DNA of 42,100 nt from Desulfomonile tiedjei (GTDB lineage: Bacteria > Desulfobacterota > Desulfomonilia > Desulfomonilales > Desulfomonilaceae): NCBI GenBank assembly GCA_020722215.1, contig DYLG01000005.1, positions 1 through 42,100 on the forward strand, in the 5' to 3' direction. The notes beneath the pieces were generated by a model. That model had not been told where the DNA came from, did no database searches, and was given only the letters and a program-made list of their open reading frames with translations. The position numbers were made by a program, and so were the translations under genes. Positions 1,086 to 24,872 of the stretch are shown here, piece by piece; positions within the stretch are counted from its first letter, which is position 1; each line of letters begins with the position of its first letter.

Positions 1086-1146
1086 TAAACCACCCGTCGG
1101 CGCGTGTCAATCGAAGTTCCGTTTCGCAACGGGGCGGCGCCATCAT

Positions 1147-1683
1147 CTACAAACCCTTGATTCGGTAAACAAGGGCATGGTCGGGGTCTTGATGGTCCAG
1201 GTCAATTTCAGCAATATCGTTGCGCACCATTTCCTTGACTATCTTCTCCGCTTTCTCGAGGGAAATATCCATCTCGAGGGCAAGCCTGGTGACGGTGAGT
1301 TCGTTACCATATTTCAGTGCGATCATCAGAGCTTGAGTGGTTTCCTTGACCTTGGGACGACTCATCATCAGGGCGCCGCCCGCTACGAGAAAACCCAATG
1401 AAGCGAGAATCGTCTCAGGGCCAATCAGACTGAAAGCATAGAAGGGGCAGGAGGTTACGCCCGTTGCCACCCCGAAAAGGATCAGGCTTATGCCTCCCCA
1501 TTTCCGCCGCGTAGACCTTTTCTTCTGTTCCCTTTCGTATCGTCCCATTATGGCCTGTGCGCGGAGCAGCTTCTCTCTTTTCCACTCCTCGCCGGGTAAG
1601 CGTTCGGATTCCATCCATTCCGGCCAATCAGCGAGAACCGGCCCGTGATCTTCTTTCGATTCGCGCCTGCGAAATCTTTCCAT
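1147..1683 (-). CDS. hypothetical membrane protein with C-terminal winged-helix-like region
   Basis: 178-aa ORF; two hydrophobic segments; C-term LTVTRLALEMDISLEKAEKIVKEMVRNDIAEID resembles an HTH. Confidence 0.6.
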   Translation of the reverse strand: MERFRRRESKEDHGPVLADWPEWMESERLPGEEWKREKLLRAQAIMGRYEREQKKRSTRRKWGGISLILFGVATGVTSCPFYAFSLIGPETILASLGFLVAGGALMMSRPKVKETTQALMIALKYGNELTVTRLALEMDISLEKAEKIVKEMVRNDIAEIDLDHQDPDHALVYRIKGL

Positions 1684-1784
1684 TTTTCAAGCCTGACACT
1701 TCAGGAAAGGCCTCCCGTGGAAGCACTTTCCCGTGGAGCGAAGTCAAAGCCGATAAGCTGCAAGAACTCCTGCCTGATCATTCG

Positions 1785-2324
1785 TCAAACCGCTGAAGAG
1801 CCGATCCACTTTCGCATTTCCGGAAGCTCCGTTGATTCCCATTGGTCGGATATCCTGAGTTTCACGAAATGCTCGAAGAGGGAATCCACGATCTCCATTC
1901 CTTCCTCGATAAGTGCGGCCTTTTCCAAGAAGCGCGCTTCGGGGCCTTCATCGGGGTCGGCTTCGCCCTGGGGGAGGACCGGTGGCGTCCTGAAAGCTCC
2001 AAATGAAAACCACGTCCCTTTCAAGAGCATAGTGAACGTATTGTCTCCCGCCCGGACCGACACTCGAGCCTCTTCGATCTTCTTGCCCTCCCGGAGAGCG
2101 GCCATGCCTTCCCGGAGCCCGGAATGCTCGCCTTTGAGACTCACCGTTTGAGGTGTGTCCGCTCCTGCCAGGTCCAGGGTCATCCTATCGAGAAACAGGA
2201 CCTCAACGAACTTGCCGCCGGAGATCTCGATCGTCCCTCCGGTCTTTTCCGACTTGAACCACAGCCAAGTGAGGAACTCCCTTCCCAGGAAAGACTTTTC
2301 GTTGAGTATCTCAAGAAAATCCAT
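1785..2324 (-). CDS. RdgC-like domain protein (putative recombination-associated)
   Basis: FLGREFLTWLWFKSE...VEVLFLDRMTLD...VSLKGEHSGLREGMAALREGKKIEEARV pattern recalled from RdgC-annotated proteins; no search run. Confidence 0.5.
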   Translation of the reverse strand: MDFLEILNEKSFLGREFLTWLWFKSEKTGGTIEISGGKFVEVLFLDRMTLDLAGADTPQTVSLKGEHSGLREGMAALREGKKIEEARVSVRAGDNTFTMLLKGTWFSFGAFRTPPVLPQGEADPDEGPEARFLEKAALIEEGMEIVDSLFEHFVKLRISDQWESTELPEMRKWIGSSAV

Positions 2325-2360
2325 GAAATGTCAGCTCCATATTGCGCGGCGAGGGGCAAG

Positions 2361-3041
2361 CTACCTGCCGGGGGCGAAGATAGGACCGGGGATATGCTCT
2401 TTGACGCCCTTGAAGCACTTGCGGTGAACAGGACAAGGTCCGTAACGGACGATGGCGTCTCTGTGGTCCTTGGTGCCATAACCCTTATGCTTGTCAAATC
2501 CGTATTGGGGGTAGAGCGTGTGAAGCTCCAACATTATCCTGTCGCGGCTCACTTTCGCCACGATCGCAGCAGCAGCGACAGAACAGGAGATCCGGTCTCC
2601 CCCGATTATCGAGTACTGGGGTATGGGCACGCTCAGCCCTATCGGTCCGTCCACCAGCAGATGGTCAGGTAAAGGCCGGATCTGTTGGATGGCCATGGTC
2701 ATGGCCTGTTTTGTGGCCTCAAGGATGTTGATCCTGTCGATGGTTTCCACGTCCGCTATTCCGATCCCGACAGCCGTTGCCAGTTCCATTATCCGGGGGA
2801 ATAGTTCTTCCCTCCGGGAAGCGCTGAGTAGCTTGGAGTCCTTCAGGCCCGGAAGCGGATCTCGGTGCGAAAGAACCACTGCCGCTGCAACTACCGGCCC
2901 GGCAAGCGGGCCTCGGCCGGCCTCATCAACGCCGGCTATTCTCGATGCTCCATGCCCGGCTGCCTTCTCCTCGTAGCGCCAAGATGGGTGTACATCTCCG
3001 GACCGCATCCCGCGAGGCCTCCTTATTGCACTCGCAGCCAC
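2361..3041 (-). CDS. rnhB: ribonuclease HII
   Basis: IAGVDEAGRGPLAGPVVAAAVVL, DSKLLSASRREELF, HKGYGTKDHRDAI motifs; in rplS/trmD cluster. Confidence 0.95.
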   Translation of the reverse strand: MAASAIRRPRGMRSGDVHPSWRYEEKAAGHGASRIAGVDEAGRGPLAGPVVAAAVVLSHRDPLPGLKDSKLLSASRREELFPRIMELATAVGIGIADVETIDRINILEATKQAMTMAIQQIRPLPDHLLVDGPIGLSVPIPQYSIIGGDRISCSVAAAAIVAKVSRDRIMLELHTLYPQYGFDKHKGYGTKDHRDAIVRYGPCPVHRKCFKGVKEHIPGPIFAPGR

Positions 3042-3044
3042 GAA

Positions 3045-3398
3045 TCATGAGGGCCTGGGGCTCCGTTCCTTGAGTCTGGCAGCCTTTCCTCGAAGTTTTC
3101 TGATGTAATAGAGCTTGGAGCGACGGACGCGGCCTCTGTTCACTATCTCAATCTTGTCGATCATCGGAGAATGCAACGGAAAAACCCTTTCCACTCCGAT
3201 TCCGTAAGACACCTTGCGCACGGTGACGCTGGTCCTGGCCCGCTTCCTGTTCATCCCGATAACGAGCCCTTCAAAGACCTGGATTCTCTCCCTCTCGCCT
3301 TCCACTATTCTCACGTGGACCTTGATCGTATCTCCCACGCGGATGTCCGGCAGGTCGAGTCTCACGTGCTCTCTCTCGATGTGCTCCAATATATTCAT
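3045..3398 (-). CDS. rplS: 50S ribosomal protein L19
   Basis: [61 protein letters not shown]. Confidence 0.97.
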
Positions 3399-4144
3399 GG
3401 CTTCTCTCCGCTTGTTGTCTCTCGCCCGATCTCGTCCAGCAGTTCCTGTTCTTCGTCGTCAAGAGCCATTTTCTGCAGGATTTCAGGACGTCGGGCAAGC
3501 GTCCTGATAAGGGCTTGTTTTTTTCTCCACCTTCGAATCTTTTCGTGGTGTCCTTCCAGCAACACTGTCGGCACTTCCATGCCTTCGAAGGAACGAGGCC
3601 TGGTGTACTGAGGGTATTCCAGCAAGCCGTTGTAGAAGGATTCACCGCACTGATAACTGTCCGAACCCAAGACTCCCGGGATCAGTCTGCTGACAACGTC
3701 TACGATGATCATGGCAGCGACTTCGCCGCCTGAGAGTATATAGTCGCCCACCGAGATCTCGCAGTCAACGAAGGCTCTTATTCTCTCGTCGAAGCCTTCG
3801 TATCTTCCGCAGATCAGCACCAAAGCCCTCATTCGAGCGAGTTCCTCGGCATAAGCCTGATCGAGAACCCGTCCCTGGGGAGTCATGAGGATTATCCATG
3901 GCTGATCCAGAATACCCTTGAGGCGCCGAATCCCTCTCACCACAGGTTCCGGCTTCATAATCATCCCCGTTCCGCCGCCGTATGGGTAGTCGTCGGTGGA
4001 ATGATGCCGATCCAGGGCGTAATCTCTCAAGTCATGCGCCTGAACGTGCAAGAGCCCGGCATCAATAGCGCGGGCAGGATTGCCGACCGCCAGGAAGGAG
4101 TCGAACACTCCCGGGAAAATGGTGAGGATTCTCACATCAAGCAT
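3395..4144 (-). CDS. trmD: tRNA (guanine-N1)-methyltransferase TrmD
   Basis: [62 protein letters not shown] at 4144 preferred over ORF-track start. Confidence 0.96.
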
Positions 4145-4643
4145 CCGGGAGGAGCCCTTCCAAAGGATCGACAATCATTTCATTGCGTTGCGTATTCACC
4201 TCCAGCACTACGTCATCAATGAGGGGCAGCAGAATCTCCCCCAGGTCTCCTTGCACTTCCAGGACGTCATTGGCGCCGGTTTCCATGATGCCGGCGACAA
4301 CCCCCAGATCGCGGCCATCCCTTGTGAGGACTCTCATTCCCATAAGCTCGAACCAGTAGTACTCGTCCTCCTCCTTGGGCGGCAGGTTCTCCTCATAGGT
4401 CCTGACAAGACTGCCAACCAGGTTCCGGGCCTTTTCCGGAGTATCGATGCCTTCCAAGGACGCCAACGCCGCTCCCTTGTGGAACCGAAGTCCCAGGACT
4501 TTGTACCTGTGTTCCCCGAACACCAGTACTGCGGATCTCTCGAATGCCTCGAAGGACTCGGTGAAAGGCCTGATCCTTATTTCGCCCTTGATCCCGAAGG
4601 GCTTGCCTGCTTGCCCTATCACTACGAGCCTATCTCCGGACAT
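4137..4643 (-). CDS. rimM: ribosome maturation factor RimM
   Basis: [29 protein letters not shown]-like C-terminal domain; synteny. Confidence 0.93.
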
Positions 4644-4697
4644 TTTTCCGCACCCTGCCCATGCATGACCGGCGGCTTGCGGTACATGGAGGGAAGG

Positions 4698-4928
4698 TCA
4701 CTCAAGAATTTCGAGAACCGCCCTCTTGTTGTGTTTTGTTGAAGCGGCGCTTAATATGGTGCGCATGGCCCTGGCAGTGCGTCCCTGCTTTCCGATAACC
4801 TTGCCTAGATCGGATTTCGCTACCTTCAACTCGATGACCGAAGTAATCTCACCTTCCACTTCAGAAACGGAGACCTCATCAGGGTTGTCCACGAGCGCTT
4901 TTGCAATGAATTCGATCAGCTCCTTCAT
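4698..4928 (-). CDS. khpA: KH domain RNA-binding protein (KhpA family)
   Basis: [21 protein letters not shown]..., [20 protein letters not shown]; next to rpsP. Confidence 0.92.
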
Positions 4929-4987
4929 CGGTCGCCTCCATTTCTACGGACCCTTGCCGGGGACCGCAAGAGAACGGCTCGGCAAAT

Positions 4988-5248
4988 TCAGGTTTCGTCG
5001 ACGGGAGCAGGCTTTGGGGAGAGTCGCATGAGTTTTCTGACGGTACTGGTCATTTCCGCACCGTTGGACACCCACTTGCGGACGGATTCCACGTTCAGAT
5101 TAAGCCCGCTGATTTTGTTTCTTGGATCGTAGGTACCGAGAATTTCGAGAAATCTTCCGTCTCTCGGCGAGGATGAGTCTGCTGCGACGATTCTGTAGAA
5201 GGGTTTCTTCTTGGCTCCGTGTCGAGCGAGTCGGATCTTGACTGCCAT
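4988..5248 (-). CDS. rpsP: 30S ribosomal protein S16
   Basis: [45 protein letters not shown] at 5248 gives canonical N-terminus. Confidence 0.96.
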
Positions 5249-5290
5249 GAGGGGCGTAACCTCCAAGGTGATGACTACGGTAAATTTGTA

Positions 5291-5319
5291 ATTTTATTAC
5301 TGTGGCCATCAGGTGTCAA
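5291..5319 (-). promoter_or_regulatory. sigma70-type promoter for rpsP operon: TTGACA-17 bp-TAAAAT
   Basis: On - strand TTGACA (5319-5314), 17-nt spacer, TAAAAT (5296-5291). Confidence 0.8.
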
Positions 5320-5347
5320 GACAAAACCCGGCTTCTTTTTTTTGAGC

Positions 5348-5376
5348 TTGACATGAAAGCTCAAGAGTGATAAAAT
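5348..5376 (+). promoter_or_regulatory. sigma70-type promoter for rplU operon: TTGACA-17 bp-TAAAAT
   Basis: TTGACA 5348-5353, 17-nt spacer, TAAAAT 5371-5376; AGGAGG at 5392-5397 before ATG 5404. Confidence 0.85.
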
Positions 5377-5403
5377 AAAAATTTACCGTTCAGGAGGATT
5401 GCA

Positions 5404-5772
5404 ATGTACGCAGTCGTCAGGTCCGGCGGCAAACAATACAAGGTCCAGCCGGGCGATTTCCTCAAAGTTGAAAAAATCACGGGGACACCCGGCACCCCTA
5501 TCGAACTGGACCAGGTGCTCGCCATTGGCGATAACGAAGCAATGCGGCTCGGAACACCCGTGATCCAGGATGCCGTTGTCAAAGCCACTATTCTCAGAAC
5601 GGCCCTGCATCCAAAGATCATCGTCTTCAAGAAGAAACGCACACACGGGTACCACAAGAAGCAAGGCCATCGTCAGTACTATACGCTATTGCGAATCGAG
5701 GAGATACTTCCCCAGCCCGTACTAGCAGTGGAACCCGAGCCGCAGGTCTTAGAAACCACACAGGCTGAGTGA
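5404..5772 (+). CDS. rplU: 50S ribosomal protein L21
   Basis: [25 protein letters not shown]...[25 protein letters not shown]. Confidence 0.97.
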
Positions 5773-5795
5773 ACCCGAACCTAGGAGGAACAATC

Positions 5796-6050
5796 ATGGC
5801 CCACAAGAAAGCAGGCGGAAGCTCGAGAAACGGCAGGGACAGCCCCGGTCAACGCATGGGCGTGAAGCGCTTCGCAGGACAGAAGGTGCGGGCCGGGAGC
5901 ATACTCGTCCGCCAAAGGGGAACAGCACTCCATCCGGGCGAAAACGTCGGAGTGGGCCGGGATTACACGCTTTTCGCCAAGATTGACGGCATAGTCAAGT
6001 TTGAGCAGAAAAGCCGCAAGAGAAAGTGCGTGTCCGTGGTTCCAGAGTGA
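5796..6050 (+). CDS. rpmA: 50S ribosomal protein L27
   Basis: [43 protein letters not shown]; start at ATG 5796 after AGGAGG. Confidence 0.97.
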
Positions 6051-6258
6051 CAGAGTAGCAACCTTGGCAGGCTTCATGAACGCGGCCGATTTCTGCCCCG
6101 GCCTCCTGCATGATCCAGCTTCTCACCAGGGCGTCGGTTAGCGCGAAAGCCGGGTCGAGTCGGGATCATGTTATGGGAGCCGGTCAGGTCCGGCGGAACT
6201 TGAGCAATCCACAGTCCCGGCCGTTTGCGGCCATCTCCCCAAGACGCGCAGCATAGCC

Positions 6259-7275
6259 TTGAAATTCGTCGATCAGGCACGTATCAGAGTAGTATCCGGC
6301 CGCGGGGGCCGCGGATGCCTGAGCTTCCGCCGCGAGCCTTTTGTCCCCAAGGGAGGCCCCGACGGAGGAGATGGAGGGAAGGGCGGCGACGTGATCATAG
6401 CAGGCGATTCCTCCATGAACACCCTTCTCGACTGCCAGTACCAGCAGCTCTATAGGGCCAGGCACGGGGCTCACGGCAAGGGCAAGGACATGCACGGCCG
6501 TTCAGCTCCCGACTTGATTATCAATGTGCCGCTGGGAACTGTGGTCATTGACGAAGAGACCGGGCAAGTGGTCGCGGAAATCGACACTGCGGATGCCCGG
6601 GTAATCGTGGCCAAAGGGGGACGAGGCGGACGAGGCAACGCGCGGTTTGCCACGCCTCGAAACCGTGCGCCCAGGCGGTTCGAGGAGGGTGCTCCCGGCG
6701 AGGATCGCCTGCTGCGGCTTGAATTGAAGCTCATTGCGGATGTGGGCCTCATCGGCATGCCCAACAGCGGCAAGTCCACGCTGATCTCAAGGGTCAGCGC
6801 CGCACGACCGGAGATAGCGGACTACCCCTTCACCACCAAGGTCCCCGCTCTAGGCGTGGTCAGAGTTGACGGGGGAATCGATTTTGTTATGGCAGACATT
6901 CCCGGCCTGATAGAGAACGCTCACCAGGGCGCAGGCATGGGAGACAGGTTTCTCAGACACATCGAGCGCACGCGGATACTGCTCCATCTCATCGACCCGT
7001 CGCCCTATCTGACGCCCGGACCTTTGGAAAGGTTCTTCATAATCATGTCGGAACTGAGCCTGTACTCTCAGGACCTCCTGAAAAAACCGATGATCGTGGT
7101 GATAACGAAGATGGACTTACCCGAGAACGAGGCTCCTGCGGCCGACCTGAGATCGGCTCTCCGAAGCAGGGATCTCAAAGTGCATCAGATCTCCGCCGCC
7201 ACCGGCGCAGGTCTGAAGGGGTTATTGGGCGAAACCGCTCTGTTGCTGAAGGGACTTCGAAACCAAAATGGATGA
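6259..7275 (+). CDS. obgE: Obg family GTPase (TTG start)
   Basis: MKFVDQARIRVVSGRGGRGCLSFRREPFVPKGGPDGGDGGKGGDV; G1 GMPNSGKSTL; follows rpmA. Confidence 0.97.
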   Translation: MKFVDQARIRVVSGRGGRGCLSFRREPFVPKGGPDGGDGGKGGDVIIAGDSSMNTLLDCQYQQLYRARHGAHGKGKDMHGRSAPDLIINVPLGTVVIDEETGQVVAEIDTADARVIVAKGGRGGRGNARFATPRNRAPRRFEEGAPGEDRLLRLELKLIADVGLIGMPNSGKSTLISRVSAARPEIADYPFTTKVPALGVVRVDGGIDFVMADIPGLIENAHQGAGMGDRFLRHIERTRILLHLIDPSPYLTPGPLERFFIIMSELSLYSQDLLKKPMIVVITKMDLPENEAPAADLRSALRSRDLKVHQISAATGAGLKGLLGETALLLKGLRNQNG

Positions 7276-11182: not shown

Positions 11183-13849
11183 TCACACGGCCTTCTGTAC
11201 GCGGCCGGCAGCCCACTGGGAGTCGTCGGTCTCGGGTATCTTGGTGAGCACCGCCAGAGGAACCGCTTCCACTTTGCGGTAAACATGGTGAGGCGCTCGC
11301 CGAGTCCCATCAACGGTAAGCAGGTCGTCCAGACCGATTCCGAAGTGTTTTTCGTTTTCGACAAGATACGGGCGAATGATCTCCCAGTCCTTATCAGTAA
11401 GCTCGGCCAACCGCCCTCCGTTGAGTTGCTCTTCCACCACCTGACCGTCAGGGTCCCGGATGTAAAGAGCGCCGCCTGAAGCAAGTGAAAACAAGTTGGA
11501 GCCGGGATAGGGACGATCGAGGAAAACCATGTTGCCGTCCTCATCAAAGGACAGGCCGTTGACTATGACGAAGCCTCCGCCCTTGAGAGGGTCTCCGGCC
11601 ATGAAGCTCTCGGCGAGGAAGTCAAGCGCGGTGCCGTTAATCACGACCCGCGGATGCCCGGCAGCATTGATCAGGGGCCGCCCCGCCGCGTTACCGCGCA
11701 CGTACGTAGCGCCTCCTTTTGCCCCGTACATGAAACACTGGCCTACATCGCCATGAATAACCAGCACGCCCCTTTTCATGATCTGTGCGACCTGGTCCTG
11801 GGCGTTCGCATGAACGTGCACTTCCATTCCGTCGGCACCGCTGGCAATGTAGTCTCCGGGAGAGCCGTACAGGTCGATCCGCACGTCGTCGGTTTTAGGT
11901 CCCAATCCGCACCCCTCGAACCGCTGGCCTCTGAGATTGAAAACAATGAACTGCCTCCAGCCAAGCCTGTATGCCCCTGTCAGGAGCACTGCATCGCTTT
12001 CGTCACCCTCGGGCGGGAAATCGCCCGCATCGACCACCAGAGTGGTTTCCATGGCGATGGGGGGTCTGAGAGCATCCCGGAGCGAATAGTCCACCAGGGT
12101 GTATCTGCCCACGTCAAGCACATCCACGATCCTCGGCAGGGACCTTAGCAAGGCGTACAGTTCGTCGGTCACGATCCGGATAAGCGCGGAGCGTTTCTTA
12201 TTGCCCAAGGGGATAGGGCGATCCAACACAAGGGTCAATGCCTCGATCACAACAGGCAGGAGGTTGTGAAACCGGCGCGCCCTCCGGCTTAATCTGGTCA
12301 ATGCCCACCTGAGAGTGTTGTAATCCCAGTCCTGCGCGTTGTCCCGCACAAGCCTGAAGATGCGCGCAGGTTCACCCGAACCGACCGCCTCGGTAAGCAT
12401 TGGAGATATTCTGCTTTCGTGGTCGGAGGGCTTGACCACGGCCTGGGTTATGTCCAGCGGCTTTCTCGGCGGAACGGTCACGTTCTCGCCGAACTTGTTG
12501 AAGCACTCGAGCTTTCGTGACCCGTTTTCCGCAGGCGACAGGTTGAAGACAAAAGCTCCACCGTCATCCAGGGATCCGCCCCTCGCGTTCCAATACTTGT
12601 CCGCGATCGGGCTGAACCTGGGATCCTCTGAGGCCAGAGATCTCAAAGTTGCGTCAATAGCCTGTTTTTCCGAGCAGACCAGTCCAACTTGGACCTCGCC
12701 GTCGTACAGGGAGAACACCTGTGGCCTGAGCATGGATGTGTCGGTTACGCCGATAAGCTGATACGTATCCTGCTCGGGGATGTTCCTTGCGATGATGAAG
12801 AACCATGGGCCATCCGGCGACGCATGGATGTGCGCGGACTGGATCGCGTCGTAGAGCGCCTGTTTTTCGCGAGGAAGCATGTCGAAATCGAGTTCTCCGG
12901 TGGGAGCCAGAGCCTCGAAAATGACCTCGAGGGGGTAACCGTACACACGGTTCCACAGGTCGAACAGCATCACGCTCACTTCCGTGTCCGTCATGAAAAG
13001 GGGAAACATTCCACGCTGTCTGAGGTAGTCGCTCGTTGCATGGTAGTTCGCGAAGTCGCCATTGTGGACAAGGGCTTCGTTGAGTCCCATGAAGGGGTGA
13101 GCGCCGCCCGGATGCCAGACTCTCCCCCGGGTGGGATAACGCTGATGAGCAATCCACACGTGGGCCAGCAAGTTTTCCAGTTTGTAGTACCGGACTACGT
13201 GCTCGGCGAAGCCCACCACCTTGAGTATCATCATGTTTCGACCGTGGGAAACCACAAAAGCCTGCTTCTCACCGACAGAGCTGTAGAAATGCCTGTTTAT
13301 GTTAAACGAGTTGCGGCTCACGAACTCATCCTCAGCCGCTCTCGGCGCAATCCCTTGCAGCCCGTTCCTCTCAATGAACTCCTTGAGCACAGCGGGTTTG
13401 ACCCTGACGAATGCCCGCCAAACATCAGGCGGTTGGACTTCGAGCCCTTGCAGGTCTCTGTAATCCTCAAGGCGGTCCAGGGTCTCCTCCTTGGCTATGT
13501 CGAAAACCGGCCGTATCCATTTCTCCCTGAGTTCGTCAAGACTGCGAGCTTCCAGCAACTCAATGTTGAGCAGATAGTGACTGTCCAGAACCTCACGTGT
13601 CACCCCAAGCTGGTCCGGATCGAAGCCCACCGCGGCGATGCCGCCGCCTTTGCCGTTGCCTCGATTGTGCATCCGGATCGAGGGCTCGAATATGTGGCGT
13701 CCCGGAACTGGGATGCTGACGGCAAATCCCGTAACACCGCAGCCCCCCTCGTTCTCTCGTTTGATGTTCACGGGGAGTTCCCCGACTGCCAATTCTCTCC
13801 TGCGGGACTCTATCAACTCTTCAGCGAACGAACGTATATTTCTCATCAT
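11183..13849 (-). CDS. glutamate synthase-like fusion: class-II glutamine amidotransferase + GXGXG domain
   Basis: GGCGVTGFA (candidate Cys nucleophile), HQRYPTRGRVWHPGGAHPF, HNGDFANY; C-terminal GltB-alpha3-like GXGXG region (DYIASGADGMEVHV...GDVGQCFMYGAKGGATYVRGNAAGRP). Confidence 0.85.
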   Translation of the reverse strand: MMRNIRSFAEELIESRRRELAVGELPVNIKRENEGGCGVTGFAVSIPVPGRHIFEPSIRMHNRGNGKGGGIAAVGFDPDQLGVTREVLDSHYLLNIELLEARSLDELREKWIRPVFDIAKEETLDRLEDYRDLQGLEVQPPDVWRAFVRVKPAVLKEFIERNGLQGIAPRAAEDEFVSRNSFNINRHFYSSVGEKQAFVVSHGRNMMILKVVGFAEHVVRYYKLENLLAHVWIAHQRYPTRGRVWHPGGAHPFMGLNEALVHNGDFANYHATSDYLRQRGMFPLFMTDTEVSVMLFDLWNRVYGYPLEVIFEALAPTGELDFDMLPREKQALYDAIQSAHIHASPDGPWFFIIARNIPEQDTYQLIGVTDTSMLRPQVFSLYDGEVQVGLVCSEKQAIDATLRSLASEDPRFSPIADKYWNARGGSLDDGGAFVFNLSPAENGSRKLECFNKFGENVTVPPRKPLDITQAVVKPSDHESRISPMLTEAVGSGEPARIFRLVRDNAQDWDYNTLRWALTRLSRRARRFHNLLPVVIEALTLVLDRPIPLGNKKRSALIRIVTDELYALLRSLPRIVDVLDVGRYTLVDYSLRDALRPPIAMETTLVVDAGDFPPEGDESDAVLLTGAYRLGWRQFIVFNLRGQRFEGCGLGPKTDDVRIDLYGSPGDYIASGADGMEVHVHANAQDQVAQIMKRGVLVIHGDVGQCFMYGAKGGATYVRGNAAGRPLINAAGHPRVVINGTALDFLAESFMAGDPLKGGGFVIVNGLSFDEDGNMVFLDRPYPGSNLFSLASGGALYIRDPDGQVVEEQLNGGRLAELTDKDWEIIRPYLVENEKHFGIGLDDLLTVDGTRRAPHHVYRKVEAVPLAVLTKIPETDDSQWAAGRVQKAV

Positions 13850-13855
13850 AAAGCC

Positions 13856-15394
13856 TCATTCGGGCGGTCGGCGGATATCATCGTCAGGGACATTTGCGTT
13901 GTAGTCCAGGTGCGCCAGGAGATCAGTACGGCCCACCAGCCGGCGAATGCTGTCCAGGCCGAATCTGTAAAGGATCTCCCTCAACTGGTCTCTCCAGCAA
14001 TGCAGCATGTTGATTATGCGCTGGGTTCCCCATTCAAGGTCCATCAGGCCGACAAGTTCCTGGTCCGTAGTAGCTATGCCTCTGGCGCAGCCGCGGCCTC
14101 TCTCGCAGTTGTGGCAGCGCACGCATTCCAGGGCCACCAGTTCGGATGTCCCGGTCACAACCCCGTCCGCACCTAGCGCAATTGCCTTGGCCACATCGTA
14201 AGCGGTACGAATCCCGCCGGAAGCGATCAAGGTCACTTCGTTCCGGATGCCCTCCTCCAGCAGAAATGCGTGGACTTTGGGAATCGCGTATTCGATGGGC
14301 ATCGCGATGTTTTTCTTGGCCACGTCCGGAGCGGCCCCGGTGCCTCCGTAAGATCCGTCGAGGTGAATTATGTGAGCCCCGGCATGGTACGACCCAACCG
14401 CTACCATGTCCACGTCCGTGGGCGTAGAAACCTTGACTGAAACCAGAGCCATGGGGTTAATGGTCTTGATCCAGTCGATGTGCTTGCGGTGATCTTCAAC
14501 CGAATAGACCGAATGAAACGGAAATGGACTGAAAAGTGAGGATCCGGCCACGGTCTCCCTGATACGCGCCACGGCAGGCGTAACCTTGTCGCCGAGCAAA
14601 TGGCCGCCCAACCCGGGTTTTGCCCCCTGAGCGTACTTGAACTCAACGACTTTGACGCGCTGAACGGTCTCTTCCTTAACTCCGAATAGGCCGGTGGCGA
14701 CTTGGGTTATCACGTGGTCGTCAAAGGGATACAGCGATTCGGGATAGCCGCCTTCTCCGGTGCACGTCAGCGATCCCCAGGCGGCGAATGCGCGGACCCT
14801 GCTGAGCATGGTGATCTGACTGATGGAGCCGAACGACATGCCGCCACCGTACAGCGGCAGTGGAATGTCGATCTTCACTCGCCTGTCCGCGCGCCTGTTG
14901 AGGCTTATGGATGTGTCGATCTGATCCGGGTCCAGGTCGGATCTCGGCGGACGCTTGGGGAACAGGAATCGGAGTTTGTCGAACCCGCCGCCTGATGCGC
15001 CGACTCTGTACTCAAGATCATGTTTGGGCAATTTCCCCGTCTCGGACATGTACCAGGTGCTCATGAGCAGATCCGCGGTCCATCTCTTGTCGCCAAGGGC
15101 CTCGGCCGAGGGATTCAAGCCCACGCTTATGGCATGTACAGGACAGTTGCGCACACAGCGGTCGGATTTCCTGGAGCACTGAACGCCCAGGCACAAGTGA
15201 TCGAAGGGCGGAACGAGCTTGCCGCCGCGCGCGCGAAAGACGCCTTCGGGACAGACGGCCACGCACTTCAGACAGTCGTTGCAAGCGTCGGAAATCACAA
15301 CAGCGTATTTGCCCATTCCGCGCTTGAACCGGGAAACGGCATTTGCGACGGCGGCAGGAGGAACTTCACTCCATATATTCTTGTAGGCCATCAA
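13856..15394 (-). CDS. ferredoxin-FMN glutamate synthase-like protein (archaeal-type GltB central domain)
   Basis: CNDCLKCVAVCP / CSRKSDRCVRNCP clusters; YGGGMSFGSIS, GEGGYPES, KPGLGGHLLGDKV, DGSYGGTGAAP, ECVRCHNCERGRGCARGIATTD. Confidence 0.88.
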   Translation of the reverse strand: MMAYKNIWSEVPPAAVANAVSRFKRGMGKYAVVISDACNDCLKCVAVCPEGVFRARGGKLVPPFDHLCLGVQCSRKSDRCVRNCPVHAISVGLNPSAEALGDKRWTADLLMSTWYMSETGKLPKHDLEYRVGASGGGFDKLRFLFPKRPPRSDLDPDQIDTSISLNRRADRRVKIDIPLPLYGGGMSFGSISQITMLSRVRAFAAWGSLTCTGEGGYPESLYPFDDHVITQVATGLFGVKEETVQRVKVVEFKYAQGAKPGLGGHLLGDKVTPAVARIRETVAGSSLFSPFPFHSVYSVEDHRKHIDWIKTINPMALVSVKVSTPTDVDMVAVGSYHAGAHIIHLDGSYGGTGAAPDVAKKNIAMPIEYAIPKVHAFLLEEGIRNEVTLIASGGIRTAYDVAKAIALGADGVVTGTSELVALECVRCHNCERGRGCARGIATTDQELVGLMDLEWGTQRIINMLHCWRDQLREILYRFGLDSIRRLVGRTDLLAHLDYNANVPDDDIRRPPE

Positions 15395-15404
15395 GGACTA
15401 TTCC

Positions 15405-16790
15405 TTACCAAGACTTGCGGTTTCCGAAGAGGCGGCCGAAAGTCTCCGCCTCGAGATTCTCGAAGAACATCACCCGGCCCTGTTCTCCGCGCAGCCTTCT
15501 CGCCTCGCGGATGCCCATTGCGCCCATGATCTCGAGCAATTGGTTGTGCCACGCGGCCATCAGGTTCACAATTCTTTGGGCGCCCCGGCCGGGTTCTACC
15601 TCAGACATCCGAACCGGACAGGGCCCGTTCTCGACGCAGTTTCTGCACACCCGGCACTCAAGGGCTATCAGCAGCGGGATATCAATGGAAACTAGGTTCG
15701 CGCCGCACAGCATGGCCTTGATCACGTGTTCTGCCATGGCAATGCCGCCGCCCGCCACCAGAGTCACCTCGTCCCGGATGCCCAGCTCCATCAGCTTCGC
15801 ATGCGCTTCTCTGAGAAAATCCTTCAGATGCACACCATCCGGCGCGTCCGGTTCGAATCCTCGCTGATCGGCCAAACAATGAATCACTTCCGCGCCGTTG
15901 CGGGCAAGGTCAAGGATCAACGGGATCTCAGCCCGGGCAGCAGGCAGCCGAACCGCGATTACCTGGTCGGGCTTCCTTTGTTTGAGACTGCCAATCACGT
16001 CCATCACGTCGTCGGAGTACGGCACTTGGACCATGTCGAACAAAGAAAGCCATTGGCCGTCCACGTCGCTGCCGTCCAGCACGGGGACAACGCCGGACGG
16101 ATAGTCGCCGAACAGGTTCATTTTCGAATAGGGAACAAGCATCCGGGTGCCGATTTTCGACGCGGCCACGGCCATGGCCCGGCCCACCGCAGGGGAAATC
16201 CGGCCGAAGGGCGGCATGTCAAACAGAATGGGAAGCGGGAGCCTGACAAACGGGATTGTCTCGTTCAGCAATTTTCCGTGGGTGTCAAATCTCAGCCGGG
16301 CCGGCCTGCGTCCCAGGTCGACTACGGTGGAAATGTATTCCCGGCCGTGGATTCCGTCTCGGGTCGGGCGTACGATTTCGCTCATGTCCGTCCACATGGA
16401 ATCGAAGCCGGGACCGGAGAACATGCCGCCGTACCCTGATCCGGAAACAGGGATCTTTCCTGTCTTGGCCTGCTCCCATGTGGCCGAGATTACGGTTGGT
16501 GTGTAGATGTCGTCGCCCAACTGTTCCCATTCGGGATTGATCGTCTTGTGAATAAGGCGCTTGGGGCAACCCTGAACGCAACGGAAGCAGTCCTTGCAGT
16601 ACTCGTCTATAGTGTCGCCGAATATGTCCGCGGAGAAAGTTCTCTTGCCGTACACTCCATAGACGCATTCATACTTGACGCATTGGGCGCATTTGAGACA
16701 CCCTTCACCCCAGTCTATGATTCCCGATCTTCCTATCGCGGGAAAGCGATGCGGGGTTTCGTGCGCTTCGATGTGATACTTCCTGGGCAT
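15405..16790 (-). CDS. degenerate glutamate synthase-like ferredoxin-domain protein (paralogue of 13856..15394)
   Basis: CLKCAQCVKYECVYG and CKDCFRCVQGCP; ECRVCRNCVENGPCPVRM matches the GltS Fe-S loop; GGMSFG and GGTGAAP motifs absent. Confidence 0.75.
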   Translation of the reverse strand: MPRKYHIEAHETPHRFPAIGRSGIIDWGEGCLKCAQCVKYECVYGVYGKRTFSADIFGDTIDEYCKDCFRCVQGCPKRLIHKTINPEWEQLGDDIYTPTVISATWEQAKTGKIPVSGSGYGGMFSGPGFDSMWTDMSEIVRPTRDGIHGREYISTVVDLGRRPARLRFDTHGKLLNETIPFVRLPLPILFDMPPFGRISPAVGRAMAVAASKIGTRMLVPYSKMNLFGDYPSGVVPVLDGSDVDGQWLSLFDMVQVPYSDDVMDVIGSLKQRKPDQVIAVRLPAARAEIPLILDLARNGAEVIHCLADQRGFEPDAPDGVHLKDFLREAHAKLMELGIRDEVTLVAGGGIAMAEHVIKAMLCGANLVSIDIPLLIALECRVCRNCVENGPCPVRMSEVEPGRGAQRIVNLMAAWHNQLLEIMGAMGIREARRLRGEQGRVMFFENLEAETFGRLFGNRKSW

Positions 16791-16844
16791 GTGTCAATTC
16801 TCTCTGAACAAAAAGCAAGTCAGTCCGGGCGGCCCATGCTTTGT

Positions 16845-17768
16845 TCACACTTGCGGCCGCGATGCCAATCCGGCTTGTTCAAGGATTTCCGGCACCTTCT
16901 CTTCCCATTCGATAGCCATTAGATGAATGCCTGCGACCCCTTTGATTTCCCGGACGCGGCTTATGGTCTCTGCCGCGATCTTGATGCCCTCTGCCGCTTG
17001 GTTTCCCTCGGGCACTCCCGAAATGCGTTTGATCAATTCCTCGGGCACATCCATGCCTGCGACCTGTGTCGCCATGTAACGGGCCATGCCCGCGTTCTTC
17101 AAGGGCGTGATTCCTGCGAGGATTTTCACCTTCTCCGTGAGACCGGCTTCCCGCGCCTGCCTCATGAACTCATCGAAACGGTGAAGATTGAATACGCACT
17201 GAGTCTGGATGAAATCCGCACCCGCCTCGATCTTCTTGGCCAGCCGTGCGACTCTGAAGCCCACCGGATCGGCAAAGGGATTAGCAGCGGCTCCGATGAA
17301 CATCTTCGGCGGATCGTCTATCTCATCTCCGCCTATGATTCTGCCCTCATCCCGCATATCTTTGACGGTTCGTACAAGCTGAATCGAATCGAGGTCAAAA
17401 ACTCCAAGCGCCTGCTTCTGATTGCCAAAACTGTGATGATCGCCGGTGAGACAGAGAACGTTGCTGATCCCCAACGCATAAGCCCCGAACAGATCACTCT
17501 GGAGAGCGATGCGGTTGCGGTCCCTGGTGACCATCTGAAGGACCGGTTCGTGACCAAGCCCCTTGAGAATCGAGCACGCTGCCAGGGAGGACATCCTCAC
17601 AATTGCAGTCTGGTTGTCCGTCACGTTAACCGCGTCCACCCGGCCTTTGAGGAAGCCGGCCTTCTTTTCCAGCACCGAAAGGTTGGAACCCTTGGGCGGG
17701 CCGCATTCAGCAGTGACCGCGAAAAGCCCCGCGTTGAGCACCTTCTCCAGTCTGCTTCGAGTCTTCAC
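16845..17768 (-). CDS. metF: methylenetetrahydrofolate reductase (MetF)
   Basis: FAVTAECGPPKG, VNVTDNQTAIVRMSSLAA, NVLCLTGDHHSFGNQ, GADFIQTQCVFNLHRF, ILAGITPLKN. Confidence 0.92.
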   Translation of the reverse strand: MKTRSRLEKVLNAGLFAVTAECGPPKGSNLSVLEKKAGFLKGRVDAVNVTDNQTAIVRMSSLAACSILKGLGHEPVLQMVTRDRNRIALQSDLFGAYALGISNVLCLTGDHHSFGNQKQALGVFDLDSIQLVRTVKDMRDEGRIIGGDEIDDPPKMFIGAAANPFADPVGFRVARLAKKIEAGADFIQTQCVFNLHRFDEFMRQAREAGLTEKVKILAGITPLKNAGMARYMATQVAGMDVPEELIKRISGVPEGNQAAEGIKIAAETISRVREIKGVAGIHLMAIEWEEKVPEILEQAGLASRPQV

Positions 17769-18433
17769 GGTAACTGATCCTCCCTCACCACGCGGCGCGG
17801 ACCGCCCGAATGAGACGTTGACCAGTCAACAGGCGGAATGTACTCGCTCAGCCTGGCCAATTCCCCCAGAGCTTCCAGCCGGTCTATGATCATCTGCCAG
17901 CCGCAACGAATATCGGGGTTCACTTCGCACCTGCCGTCCTTCGAGCCCCCGCATGGGCCGTTCATCAGCCGCTTGGAGCACCTGGTCACCGGACATACCG
18001 CTCCGAAGTATCCCAGTTTGCACTGCCCGCAACCCAGGCAATTCTCTTGCCAGATGCCTCTCATCTCAGTTTCTCCGATGAACAGGGTGTCAAGGGCCGG
18101 GAACACCGGCTTGTCCGAATATACCCTGGCAAGGGCCTGCACGCCGGCGCCGCACCCCAGGGACAGGATCGCGGCGTGTTCAGGCACCAGGCTTGCTATG
18201 GATTCAATGAAATCGTCCACACATTGCCTGTCAATGCAGGCTTCCGTGATCACGGGGCTCTTCCCTTCCTTGCCGAAAGCGAGTTGGAGAGCCGCAGCAA
18301 GAAGCTGCGTTTCTCTGTGGCCTCCCGCAGCGCACTCGGCAACGCAGGAATCGCATCCCACAACAAGAACGGAAGGATACCCCTCCAACATCCGCTTGAT
18401 TTCTTCTATGGGCTTACGCTCCGCTACTATCAC
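17765..18433 (-). CDS. MetV-like methylene-THF reductase C-terminal/zinc protein
   Basis: GCDSCVAECAAGGHRE, ENCLGCGQCKLGYFGAVCPVTRCSKRLMNGPCGGSKDGRCEV; ATGA overlap with metF. Confidence 0.88.
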   Translation of the reverse strand: MIVAERKPIEEIKRMLEGYPSVLVVGCDSCVAECAAGGHRETQLLAAALQLAFGKEGKSPVITEACIDRQCVDDFIESIASLVPEHAAILSLGCGAGVQALARVYSDKPVFPALDTLFIGETEMRGIWQENCLGCGQCKLGYFGAVCPVTRCSKRLMNGPCGGSKDGRCEVNPDIRCGWQMIIDRLEALGELARLSEYIPPVDWSTSHSGGPRRVVREDQLP

Positions 18434-18543
18434 TGTAAATCCTCCCAGGGTGACCGTGTCACTCCTGTGACGTTAGTCGCATTCGTTGACTATTGTGTCG
18501 CCTGCTGTAACCGCCGCGAATCGGCATTGCCGGCGCCGTTGGG

Positions 18544-18957
18544 TCATGGGGATCTCTCGGAGAACATGTTCCCCAGAGCTTCAACGCGCGCCTTGAACTC
18601 GTCGATAAGCCGCTCCAGAGCGTCCAAGTCTCTCGGAGGCACGTGGACGTATTCGACCCTCTCCTGCTCAATACCCAATTCCTCGAGCCAGGATCTCGCA
18701 TAGTCCACTCTCTTGTGGGACCTCATTGAGCCCTCGACGAAGCGGCATGCCTTCTCTTCGCAGGCTACCACAAGGACCCCCTGAGTTCCCGCTGCAAGGG
18801 TCTTGAGCAGATGGTGCGCTTCCACTTTTCCGGAACAGGGTATCGGTACGAGCTTTAGACCGGGCTTGCGGCGTGCAAGAGCTTTCTGATTTCCATTGTT
18901 GAAAAGCTGCAGGTTGCGGCAGTGATACACTACTATCTTAATCGGCTTTGTTTCCAT
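18544..18957 (-). CDS. MvhD/FrhD-like hydrogenase iron-sulfur subunit domain protein (variant)
   Basis: IKIVVYHCRN...PIPCSGKVEAHHLLKTLAAGTQGVLVVACEEKACRF; ATG 18957 preferred. Confidence 0.75.
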   Translation of the reverse strand: METKPIKIVVYHCRNLQLFNNGNQKALARRKPGLKLVPIPCSGKVEAHHLLKTLAAGTQGVLVVACEEKACRFVEGSMRSHKRVDYARSWLEELGIEQERVEYVHVPPRDLDALERLIDEFKARVEALGNMFSERSP

Positions 18958-19349: not shown

Positions 19350-20795
19350 TCACTCGCTGAAGCCCCGTTTTTTCAGCTCATCGTTCAGAATGTCATTGAC
19401 CAACTGGGGGTTGGCCTTTCCTTTGGTAGTTTTCATTACTTGTCCCACAAAGAACTTCTTCAGGCCGGTCTTGCCTGCCAGCAGCTTCTTCAGTTCTTGC
19501 GGGTTGTCATCGAGCACTTGTTTTACCAGGCCTGCGAGTTCGCCCGAGTCCGAAATCTGTACGAGGCCCTTTTCCTTGATTATCGCGGCCGGGTCCTTCC
19601 CGGTTGCGTACATTTCCTCGAAAACGGTCTTGGCAATCTTCCCCGAGATGGTCCCGTCGTCAACGGATTTCAGCAGACCTGCGAGTTGCTCCGCGCTCAC
19701 CAGGCACGATCCTATACCTTCTTCTTCGCCTTTGAGCATTCTCATGAGTTCGGTCATGATCCAGTTGCTGACCGTCTTAGGTTGGGGGAACAGAGCCACG
19801 GTCTGCTCGAAGTATGCGGCCAGATCCCGGGACGCGGTCAAGACACCCGCGTCGTATGGTGGAATGCCGAATTGCTCGACAAATCGGGCTTTCTTCTGAA
19901 ACGGCAGTTCGGGGAGTTCGTTTCGCAGACGCTCCACCAGGGAAGGTTCCACCCGAAGCGGCAAGAGATCCGGATCGGGGAAATAGCGATAGTCGTGGGC
20001 CCATTCCTTGCTCCGCATAGCCGCTGTGGCGCCGGTTGAGGGATCGAAGAGCCTGGTTTCCTGAACGATTCTCTCTCCTGCCTTGACGGCTTCGATCTGG
20101 CGGTCGATCTCATATTCCAATGCGCGCTGGACGTTTCGGAACGAGTTCATATTCTTCACTTCGGTTTTTACTCCAAGGGCCTGTTCTCCCTTGGGGCGGA
20201 CCGACACGTTGGCGTCGCAACGGAAGCTGCCTTCCTGCATATTGCCGTCGCAGATATCAAGGTACACGAGAATGGATCTCAGTGCGCGCAGGTATTCGGC
20301 AGCCTCTTGGGGCGAGTGTATTTCGGGCTCGGAAACGATCTCTATCAGCGGCACCCCGGTACGGTTGAGGTCAACGTAAGAGAGCGGCTTGTTCTCATCG
20401 TGAATAAGCTTGCCCGCATCTTCCTCCATGTGTATTCGGGTCAGGGGTATTCGTCTGTTTCCCTGCTCCGTTTCGATCTCCACGTACCCGCCTTCCGCGA
20501 CTGGGAGTTCGTACTGAGAGATTTGATAGTTTTTCGGCAGGTCCGGGTAGTAGTAGTTCTTTCTTGCGAACCGGCTGAATTCGCTTATCCTGCAATGGCA
20601 GGCCAGAGCCATTTTCACAGTGAATTCAAGTGCTTTTCGATTGAGCACAGGCAATGTGCCCGGCATTCCCTGACAGATAGGGCAGGTGTTCATATTGGGC
20701 TCTGCCCCAAAGCGGGTAGTACATGAGCAGAACGCCTTGGAATCAGTGAGGAGCTGGGCATGCACCTCGAGTCCGATAATTGGTTCGTATTCCAT
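19350..20795 (-). CDS. gatB: aspartyl/glutamyl-tRNA amidotransferase subunit B
   Basis: [59 protein letters not shown]. Confidence 0.97.
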
Positions 20796-20804
20796 GAATC
20801 AATC

Positions 20805-22268
20805 CTACAGAACGGGACTTTTCAGGTGATGATCCGTTTCCCGCTGAAATGCGGATGCTAACTGCACGAGCCTTGCCTCCTGGAAGTGCGGTGCGATGAG
20901 CTGTATCCCGACAGGGAGGCCGTTCCGTGAAAAGCCCCCCGGTATTGCCATTCCGGGGAGACCCGCCATGTTGACAGGTATGGTAAACACGTCCGTGAGA
21001 TACATCTGAATCGGATCGTCGATCTTCTCGCCGATTTTGAACGGAGGCGTCGGCGCGATGGGACAAAGTATCGCGTCGCAGGTCCGAAACGCGTTCTTGA
21101 AATCATTGGTGATAAGCGTTCGGATTTTGGCAGCCTTCAGGTAATACGCGTCGTAGTACCCGGAAGACAGTGCATACGTTCCCAGCATGATCCGCCGTTT
21201 CACTTCCGGGCCGAAGCCTTCGGCCCTGGTTCTGCAGTACATATCTATCATGCTCTCGAATTGTGCCGATCTGTGGCCGTACTTGACTCCGTCAAACCGG
21301 GCAAGATTGGAGGATGCCTCGCTGGGGGCTATGATGTAGTACGCTGCAATGCCGTAATCCAAGTGAGGAAGCGACAGCTCGATGAAGCTAATCCCCATGC
21401 TTTTGAAGACCACCCGAGTTTCCGACATGACCTTGTCCACATCCGGGTCTTCCAGTTTGCTGAAAAACTCGCTGGGGAGGCCGATTGTCATGCCTTTCAC
21501 CGGCTTGTCCAACACCGAGATGAAATCCGGGTGCTCCATGGGCGCCGATGTGGAATCCATGGGGTCATGGCTGCAGATAAGGTTGAGAATCAGGGCCATG
21601 TCCCGCGCGTCGCGTCCAATGGGGCCGATCTGGTCCAGACTCGACGCGTACGCCACCAAGCCATACCTTGAAACTGCGCCGTACGTAGGCTTGATACCGG
21701 TGACTCCGCAGAAGCCGGCAGGGAGTCTTATGGATCCCCCGGTGTCTGAGCCAAGAGCAACCGGAGCCTCCATGGCTGCGACAGCCGCGGCAGGGCCTCC
21801 GCTCGATCCGCCGGGTGTCATCTCGGGATTCCATGGATTACGAGTCGGTCCCCAGTACGACGTCTCGGTTGAGGACCCCATCGCGAACTCATCCATGTTC
21901 GCCATCCCCAAAATGACCATTCCTGCTTCGCGCATGAGACGAACCACGGTAGCGTCATAAGGCGGGGCAAAATTCGCGAGAATTCTCGAACCGCAGGTGA
22001 CTCTGCGGCCCTTGACGCACATGTTATCCTTAACTGCGATGGGCAGGCCGGTCAGGGGGCCGTTGTTTCCGGCAGCAATTCGGCGGTCCGCTTCCTGAGC
22101 CATCTCGATCGCTAGATCAGGGGTGACGGTCACAAAGGCTCGAACCCTTTCTTCCACGGCCTGGATTCGCTCAAGAAAAGATCTTGTGATCTCGACTGAA
22201 CTCGCCTCTTTGTTCGCAAGCAGCTTGCAGAGTTCGGTTGCGGGTTTTTCGTAAAGGTTGGTGTGCAT
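20805..22268 (-). CDS. gatA: aspartyl/glutamyl-tRNA amidotransferase subunit A
   Basis: [53 protein letters not shown]. Confidence 0.97.
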
Positions 22269-22913: not shown

Positions 22914-24872
22914 TCAAGGTTGGCTTGGAACAATGGTCAAATACTTGTGCCAAAGAACCCGATGCAGGCTCGAAGGGTTCATGAGTCGGCCGATCGTGTC
23001 CCGATCCAGCGGGCCTGCGCCGGGATGAGTGCTCTTCTGGAGGGCTTTTCCTTCCATGTCCGCCATGGCGTCCCACCTGAAGACATGGCCGGGAATCTGC
23101 TGTTCATGCTTCCAGATCGGAGTGATCCCCGGAGTCTTAATTCCTCGCAGCGCCTCACCCAGTCCAGCCGCTGAGGGATTGCCGTGGCATTCGTGGCAGT
23201 TTCTGCCCCGTTCGCCAATGGTGTGAGGCGCATAGGGGTTGAAAATGAGCGCTGGATCTCCGGAACCGGTCCTGGGAATCACCCTGTCGACCAACAGAGT
23301 CCCAGTGGAATCAACGTGGGAGATCACATACTGATACATGGGCCGCATCAGAGAGATTTTTCCTCTTGAATTGAAACCAAGGGGCAGAGTTTCCCACCGT
23401 CGAGCAGTGTAGCCTCGGAACCACGCTCCGCTGCGAGCTTCTCCAGTGAGCCAATCCTTGGTGACCGGGGGCTTCCATTCCGAAACAGGCTTATCGGGCG
23501 TGGCTCCGCCAGGTGGCGGAAGCACGTCCGCGTAGGTTCCCGCGTATCTGTGGGGGATTTCCTGGATTTGCGGATCATTCTGTCCTTGGGTGAGAGCCCA
23601 CTTCCAGTAGTCTGCTCTTTCTTCAAGCATCAAGTGCAAACCGTAGTCCTGGAAAGACCATGTTGCATGGCACGCGGAACACTTGAGTTTGGCTATGTGC
23701 GCCTCTACCTGATGTGGGATTATGGCACGGTTCCATACGGGGATCTTCCGCCCCTTTCCTTTCAGCAGGATGATCTCTCCGCTATCCTCTTTAAGTGCTG
23801 CGGGGTGGTCGCCTCTGACGTGACAGGCCTCGCACGAAATCGTCACTTGAGACGCGGACGTGCCGGGAAGCTCGCCGGTACCGTGCACTTCGTCGAGTGT
23901 GTGACAGTCCATGCACTCCATTCCGCGTCGAAAGTGTATGTCCGAGGCCAAACGGTGCTGCTCGGAGCCGTAAATTCTCGGCGGCAATCGTCCCGCCATG
24001 AAAGGACTGCGAAATCCGCGTTCGAAATCCTTCTCGAAGAGCCCCACATAGTCCGCTCCCACGTGGTTGGAATTGTGACACTTCAGACACGCGGTGATCC
24101 CGGTTTTCCGAACGATGACGTGGCCACGAGGCCTGCCATCGCTGCTGTTGGGATAGGCAATGTGGCAAGCGGAGCATCCTTTGCCCCGATGCTCTCCGAA
24201 CCGGGATGCCCCTCGGGTGTGGAGATGACAGCGGAGGCACGAGCGTCGAAGCAGGTCGTCGCCAAGGTTTGTTGAAAAGGAAGGGTGGGGAACCTGCTTG
24301 AGGCTTCCGGCATCCACGGTGGCGTATGCCGGTAGAGGCTTGTCCTGAGTGCCGAACGCGAATCGAGTGTGGTTGATAATTCGAGGAGCAAGTGCCATCA
24401 CGGATGTCTTGACTCGGCGACTCTCTTCCGGGTGGCACTTTCCGCAGGTCTTGTCAACGCTCCCCAAATCGCCTGGATCAGGAATGAGGCCTTTGTGAGC
24501 AATCTCTTCGTTCTCCGAGGACGAATCCCCGCCGTGGCACGCGACGCAGGAGACGGCGTGGGAAGGATCCATCTGTGCTTGCTCCTCGTGGCATTTCACG
24601 CACTTCCCGGGTTCCCTGCATTCAATGGGTTCGGGGAGTTGTGCAGGGACGCCCCACCATTGGGGATACAACGGCACTGCCACCCGGGCTGGGGACGGGA
24701 ACGAAGGCACGAGCCGCGGGGCAGGGGGACTCCCATCTTGTTCTGCCGGCAGGCTGCTGTGGCAGGCCAAAGAGACGAGAATAACCGGCGCAGCCGCAGC
24801 AATAAGGCGCGTGAAAAGAGTCGGTCGCCGGCGAAACCCGAACAGGCCTGGCATCTCTGATGGGAATCTCAA
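22914..24872 (-). CDS. decaheme c-type cytochrome, exported
   Basis: 10 CxxCH motifs counted by eye (CVKCH, CVACH, CGKCH, CLRCH, CSACH, CLKCH, CMDCH, CEACH, CSACH, CHECH); hydrophobic N-terminus. Confidence 0.9.
   Translation of the reverse strand: MRFPSEMPGLFGFRRRPTLFTRLIAAAAPVILVSLACHSSLPAEQDGSPPAPRLVPSFPSPARVAVPLYPQWWGVPAQLPEPIECREPGKCVKCHEEQAQMDPSHAVSCVACHGGDSSSENEEIAHKGLIPDPGDLGSVDKTCGKCHPEESRRVKTSVMALAPRIINHTRFAFGTQDKPLPAYATVDAGSLKQVPHPSFSTNLGDDLLRRSCLRCHLHTRGASRFGEHRGKGCSACHIAYPNSSDGRPRGHVIVRKTGITACLKCHNSNHVGADYVGLFEKDFERGFRSPFMAGRLPPRIYGSEQHRLASDIHFRRGMECMDCHTLDEVHGTGELPGTSASQVTISCEACHVRGDHPAALKEDSGEIILLKGKGRKIPVWNRAIIPHQVEAHIAKLKCSACHATWSFQDYGLHLMLEERADYWKWALTQGQNDPQIQEIPHRYAGTYADVLPPPGGATPDKPVSEWKPPVTKDWLTGEARSGAWFRGYTARRWETLPLGFNSRGKISLMRPMYQYVISHVDSTGTLLVDRVIPRTGSGDPALIFNPYAPHTIGERGRNCHECHGNPSAAGLGEALRGIKTPGITPIWKHEQQIPGHVFRWDAMADMEGKALQKSTHPGAGPLDRDTIGRLMNPSSLHRVLWHKYLTIVPSQP

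Follow-up and report, generated by a model that had tools for sequence, protein, structure and literature searches.

A split glutamate synthase core with a candidate MetF-MetV-MvhD electron-input arm in anaerobic bacteria

The window, a 42,100-bp stretch of Desulfomonile tiedjei DNA, carries a six-gene set that we file as a glutamate synthase (GOGAT) with a new electron-input arm. Judging from sequence, three of its products, here called GltDeg, GltFMN and GatGXG, very probably form a split glutamate synthase core. We see about an even chance that the whole set is a glutamate synthase in which GltD has been replaced by an electron-input arm of MetF, MetV and MvhD, likely fed from methyl-THF. 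No description of a MetFV-MvhD-GltS cluster was found in the literature searched, which was thin in subscription journals, and to that extent the system is undescribed, as a sequence-only reading of this DNA had supposed.

The six open reading frames (Table 1) form a tight run on the minus strand from 18957 to 11183, in the order MvhD-MetV-MetF-GltDeg-GltFMN-GatGXG, and all six same-strand genes with short gaps that the sequence-only reading had listed were found where it placed them. Their Pfam names, in gene order, are FlpD, DUF5981 (the MetV C-terminus), MTHFR, Glu_synthase with Fer4 (weak and degenerate), Glu_synthase with Fer4 (strong), and GATase_6 with GXGXG. MvhD and MetV are separated by 110 bp, MetV and MetF overlap by 4 bp, and the remaining gaps measure 54 bp (MetF-GltDeg), 10 bp (GltDeg-GltFMN) and 6 bp (GltFMN-GatGXG). 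For MvhD the ATG at 18957 is the most likely start codon, an in-frame TTG at 19032 being possible. Scans for promoters and terminators gave no signal above chance. Neither an HdrA nor a GltD gene adjoins the set in the window, also as first read. Directly upstream lies the glutamine-dependent amidotransferase pair gatB and gatA, which precedes the set in locus L137 as well; near gatA is a gene for a 652-aa protein with cytochrome c3/c7-type haem repeats (22914-24872, minus strand).

Table 1. Features of the six-gene set and its upstream context, in window coordinates
Feature	Position	Strand	Evidence or remark
MvhD/FlpD-like [2Fe-2S] adaptor, 137 aa from ATG	18544..18957	-	PF02662, E 2e-26
MetV-like iron-sulfur protein, 222 aa	17765..18433	-	PF12225/DUF5981, E 2e-35
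MetF, methylene-THF reductase of the MetV-dependent type, 307 aa	16845..17768	-	PF02219, E 2e-38
GltDeg, 2[4Fe-4S] ferredoxin domain and degenerate GltS barrel with its own Cys cluster, 461 aa	15405..16790	-	Fer4 and weak PF01645
GltDeg aa 115-148, SG.GY.G.F.G.GFDSMWTDMSEIVRPTRDGIHG	16347..16448	-	nearly invariant in 33-79 homologues; pLDDT <50
GltFMN, 2[4Fe-4S] and canonical GltS FMN domain, 512 aa	13856..15394	-	PF01645, E 5e-91
GatGXG, class II glutamine amidotransferase fused to GXGXG domain, 888 aa	11183..13849	-	PF13522 and PF01493 (E 2e-12)
GatGXG Cys37 codon, predicted catalytic N-terminal nucleophile	13739..13741	-	100% conserved
gatB-gatA (aspartyl/glutamyl-tRNA amidotransferase), upstream context outside the complex	19350..22268	-	by eye from translations

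The active sites of the core are conserved. The class II glutaminase set of GatGXG (C37, R237, N263-G264, N268 and D288) is invariant in 60 homologues, and GltB is the best PDB fold match of its predicted structure. The stretch before Cys37 matches the GltB propeptide in length, and by analogy with GltB a 36-residue propeptide would be removed to expose this residue. Against the PDB, GltFMN aligns with the FMN domain of GltB (E 3e-51). All its cysteines are kept across homologues, with Cys424/427/430/436 invariant. At the 2-oxoglutarate-binding residues the GEGG loop is retained, but the KPGEGGQLPG of GltB is replaced, almost invariantly, by KPGLGGHLLG. In our phylogeny GltFMN forms a clade of its own (support 99/99), outside GltB, the MgsC-type protein, the haloarchaeal homologue and the GltS of the sister family; a position inside ordinary GltB had been named earlier as one outcome that would speak against a distinct system.

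GltDeg has 12 invariant cysteines, covering both ferredoxin clusters and the barrel cysteines, and a barrel whose residues 155-340 vary freely. Its AlphaFold model (pLDDT 82) keeps the TIM barrel, with glutamate synthase as the best PDB fold. The low model confidence of the monomer at residues 115-148, despite their conservation, suggests that this segment is ordered only by a partner, and it is possibly a docking segment. In some families GltDeg and GltFMN form a single fused protein, and a natural fusion stands at locus L047.

To ask how far the linkage extends, we scanned GTDB contigs with GltDeg and took the best 80 loci of 257 relatives, whose sources are largely metagenome bins, any single one of which may be contaminated. 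The loci fall in Desulfobacterota, Omnitrophota, Hydrogenedentota, Armatimonadota, Planctomycetota, Kiritimatiellota, Poribacteria, Spirochaetota, Fibrobacterota, Sumerlaeota, Chloroflexota and Methanophagales archaea, and the core is present in more than 10 phyla. One contig with the cluster (L087) is labelled Nealsonbacteria and looks mis-binned, because that lineage has reduced genomes. Among 41 loci with complete flanks, drawn from the best matches, GltFMN and GatGXG follow GltDeg in all 41, MvhD precedes it in 40 and MetF lies upstream in 38; the gene order of the window recurs in 38 of the 41, 28 of them with MetV (type A, to which the window belongs) and 10 without it (type B). We also sampled the window's own phylum evenly. 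GltDeg occurs in 114 of 395 genomes (29%), and the 100 GltDeg loci that were read comprise 48 of type A (MvhD-MetV-MetF-trio), 14 of type D (GlcD-like FAD dehydrogenase-trio), 11 of type C (MvhD-trio), nine of type V (MvhD-MetV-trio without MetF), five of type CH (MvhD-trio with downstream Hdr genes), two of type B, two of none and nine cut by a contig end. Since the order recurs in 38/41 full-flank loci and in 48/100 loci of one phylum, the set is not a chance neighbourhood, and the association of GltS-like genes with MetF, MetV and MvhD that the sequence-only reading had noticed proves to be conserved; a lack of linkage in relatives, which that reading had named as counter-evidence, is not what we see. 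One genome carries two complete systems in tandem (L113:211-15846), one of type A with MetV-MetF and one of type B with a divergent MetF.

The core sits in glutamine synthetase/GOGAT operons. Its recurrent neighbours are glnA, amtB, carA, carB, a class I GATase, hisF and NtrC-type regulators, and same-strand nitrogen genes occur at 49 of the 100 surveyed loci; loci L175 and L185, for example, read glnA-mvhD-metV-metF-trio, and locus L054, by eye, guaA-pyrG-nadE-mvhD-trio-hisF. Among relatives in the window's family we found neither another complete GOGAT candidate nor a PF00310 protein, and the PF01645 proteins there were GltDeg, GltFMN and one or two weak single-domain matches. The sister family f2 (L142-L144) has a split GATase-GltS-(GXGXG+GltD)-glnA-carA-carB arrangement; like the window type it has separate subunits beside glnA, carA and carB, but in it GXGXG and GltD share one polypeptide, and it lacks GltDeg, MvhD, MetV and MetF. 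Because of this arrangement and the lack of any other GOGAT found in the window's family, the trio appears to occupy the place of its relatives' GltD-type GOGAT.

We considered whether GltD might be supplied in trans. The window's genome encodes a single full-length GltD-like protein (contig C159); it lies directly behind NfnA, and we rejected it as NfnB. A glutamate dehydrogenase family protein is present in nearly all f1 genomes, which weighs against our reading. At locus L160 a type B cluster has an ordinary GltB (1536 aa) and GltD (299-6335, minus strand) as divergent neighbours, and the new core exists there alongside a conventional GOGAT. Most genomes of the window's family also encode a single-domain FMN GltS-like protein of about 560 aa without an amidotransferase, for example at L134:3438-5117 (minus strand; contig C282 of the window's own genome) and L139:5866-7569.

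What changes from locus to locus is the module in GltD's place: MvhD-MetV-MetF as in the window, MvhD-MetF-HdrCBA-NuoF, MvhD alone, or a GlcD-like FAD dehydrogenase. On a quick tree of the core, module type changes at least 11 times and MetF presence at least seven times. In family f9, GlcD, GltDeg, GltFMN and GatGXG are joined in one chain of about 2530 aa, encoded between glnA and carAB (L152:3969-11567, minus strand; also L153, L172 and L248-L251). This fusion is the best evidence that direct feeding of the core by a dehydrogenase is real; MetFV-MvhD occupies the same position and thereby becomes a candidate input arm as well. A donor role for the module position also agrees with the 2-hydroxy acids that GlcD-type dehydrogenases oxidise, whose potential is similar. 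Outside the GlcD type MvhD is a near-constant companion of the trio, also where MetF is absent. Where the flank is long enough to judge, more than one third of the same-phylum cores have no MetF beside them, and in nine loci MetV is kept but MetF is not (L171, L179, L188, L212, L213, L219 and L225-L227). These nine read GlnA-MvhD-MetV-trio, with AmtB in L226. This counts against the proposed arm, as MetF may act in trans or be dispensable; if it does not act in trans, MetV may have a role of its own in these loci. In type B loci the trio is followed by HdrC-HdrB-HdrA and NuoF; among type A loci L196, L210 and L211 add HdrCBA, and most have no Hdr genes.

These Hdr genes bear on a first alternative, in which MvhD, with HdrABC where present, is an electron hub that splits electrons from NADH or ferredoxin between two acceptors, MetF-bound methylene-THF and GltFMN-bound 2-iminoglutarate, with bifurcation at HdrA as a possibility. 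The HdrCBA-NuoF arrangement of type B is in its favour, as are L196, L210 and L211, whose HdrCBA resemble a Moorella-type MetVF-HdrCBA-MvhD set with a GOGAT added. The type IV MetVF-Hdr complex also has a proposed second, unknown acceptor (PMC8760232). We nevertheless consider a hub unlikely, given that neither the window set nor most type A loci have Hdr genes beside them and that the GlcD variant needs no Hdr.

A second alternative is co-regulation, the trio being a ferredoxin-dependent GOGAT served by its own 2[4Fe-4S] domains and MetFV-MvhD a separate, co-transcribed methylene-THF reductase. Both iron-sulfur flavoproteins, GltDeg and GltFMN, have ferredoxin domains, and these could take electrons from free ferredoxin; MetF has been gained or lost repeatedly on the core tree; and reduced ferredoxin can serve MetVF enzymes as donor in vitro (PMC8760232). 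Against this, MvhD stays with the trio even without MetF, the GlcD-core fusion demonstrates a dedicated dehydrogenase input, and at L048 a different MetV-MetF lineage has joined the trio in another gene order. Co-regulation therefore strikes us as improbable too.

We favour instead electron input from MetFV-MvhD into the GOGAT core, which we regard as probable, and we infer that in the window's lineage the six proteins would act as one complex, with the route, direction and methyl-THF donor described here. GatGXG would release ammonia from glutamine, and GltFMN would combine it with 2-oxoglutarate to give 2-iminoglutarate, to be reduced to glutamate on FMN. GltDeg, apparently a duplicated GltS protein with a decayed barrel and retained iron-sulfur clusters, would be the electron entry and docking subunit. 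Electrons would pass from the MetF flavin to MvhD and MetV and on to GltDeg, and the net reaction would be methyl-THF + glutamine + 2-oxoglutarate giving methylene-THF + 2 glutamate.

Conservation in the proposed arm is consistent with this route. Four cysteines of MvhD (72 homologues) and Cys27/30/34/71/94 and the C-terminal Cys of MetV (48 homologues) are invariant, as are E21, D110 and T189-Q190 in type A MetF, among them the catalytic Glu, Asp and Gln of the MTHFR fold; type B MetF keeps E21 and Q190 and has lost the D110 equivalent, a point against the route. In E. coli the counterpart of E21 is E28, which folate chemistry requires and NADH oxidation does not; the conservation of this residue therefore speaks for a folate substrate. 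Conversion of 2-oxoglutarate and ammonia to glutamate has a potential of about -120 mV. A conserved NADH site is lacking in MetVF enzymes, and E0' is -200 mV for the methylene/methyl-THF couple (PMC8760232). Because MetF of the MetV type is without a known NADH site, 5-methyl-THF is a likely electron source, and as the potential of glutamate formation lies above that of its couple, methyl-THF oxidation could drive it. The reverse direction would have to run uphill and counter to the glutaminase step, which is irreversible.

As to the donor itself, we put methyl-THF at slightly less than an even chance. CODH/ACS is found in 91 of 114 core-bearing genomes and 160 of 281 others (p 2e-5, from raw counts that ignore relatedness); since kinship is ignored and the association is not specific to MetF-bearing types, it leaves the donor undecided. 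Some type A genomes have no CODH/ACS, and the window's genome has four further MetF-family genes, one within a separate MvhD-MetV-MetF set, so methyl-THF need not be abundant. At L132 and L133 (contigs C275 and C276 of the same genome), one MetF-like gene lies, by eye, beside NuoF/HydA-looking genes, and one MetV-MetF pair is followed by an HdrA-like gene.

The sequence-only reading had offered two other functions. The first, a methylene-THF reductase with the GltS-like flavoproteins as its electron module, agrees with the intact MetF active site and the fully conserved MvhD and MetV, but would leave an invariant glutaminase site without purpose and the many loci with the trio, glnA, amtB and carAB but no MetF unexplained; it is very improbable, and the roles are better reversed, with the trio as catalytic core and MetFV-MvhD as exchangeable module. 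The second, an Mgs-like amidotransferase tied to one-carbon metabolism, with N-methylglutamate or some other product built from one-carbon units, shares the three GltS domain types of MgsABC and has a one-carbon gene adjoining, but is hardly credible: the MgsC reference (L149, Rhizobium MgsC-type, 442 aa) lies on another branch and lacks the ferredoxin half, the amidotransferase and GXGXG domains are fused here, the neighbours differ, and gmaS and mgd are not among the recurrent ones, where ammonia-assimilation genes are found instead.

Compared with other known systems, the set shares with NADPH-dependent GltBD the class II amidotransferase, FMN and GXGXG domains and the expected 2-oxoglutarate and glutamine chemistry. 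It differs in having its core in three genes, an extra degenerate GltS subunit and two added ferredoxin domains, and in the absence of GltD, in whose place MetF-MetV-MvhD stand. An F420-dependent glutamate synthase (FGltS) with FrhB10 has been proposed in ANME-1 (PMC9012536); it too would pair a GltS core with an electron subunit other than GltD, but with F420 input. Our Methanophagales loci (L108, L111) have a GlcD-like subunit upstream, unlike that proposal. The type IV MTHFR of Moorella, MetVF-HdrCBA-MvhD, likewise has MetF, MetV and MvhD genes together, whereas the window set is without HdrCBA and is linked to a GOGAT core. None of the four types into which MTHFRs have been sorted includes GltS (PMC8760232), and the GltS electron donors reviewed are NADPH, NADH or ferredoxin (PMC8097209).

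The usual classes of GOGAT follow the electron donor (NADPH, NADH, ferredoxin and, as proposed, F420), and we found no account of the electron source of this widespread core. We tentatively suggest a GOGAT class fed directly by 5-methyl-THF, with sister forms fed through a 2-hydroxy acid or Hdr arm, in which an exchangeable module would let glutamate synthesis pull methyl-THF oxidation and give anaerobes near the energy limit an outlet for electrons at about -200 mV. On the same suggestion, GOGAT may be the second acceptor that is missing from the MetVF-Hdr complex in relatives with HdrABC. The annotation also becomes testable, as databases would name these genes a methionine-pathway MetF beside glutamate synthase fragments. 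If the proposal is true, many anaerobic bacteria would couple nitrogen assimilation directly to one-carbon metabolism.
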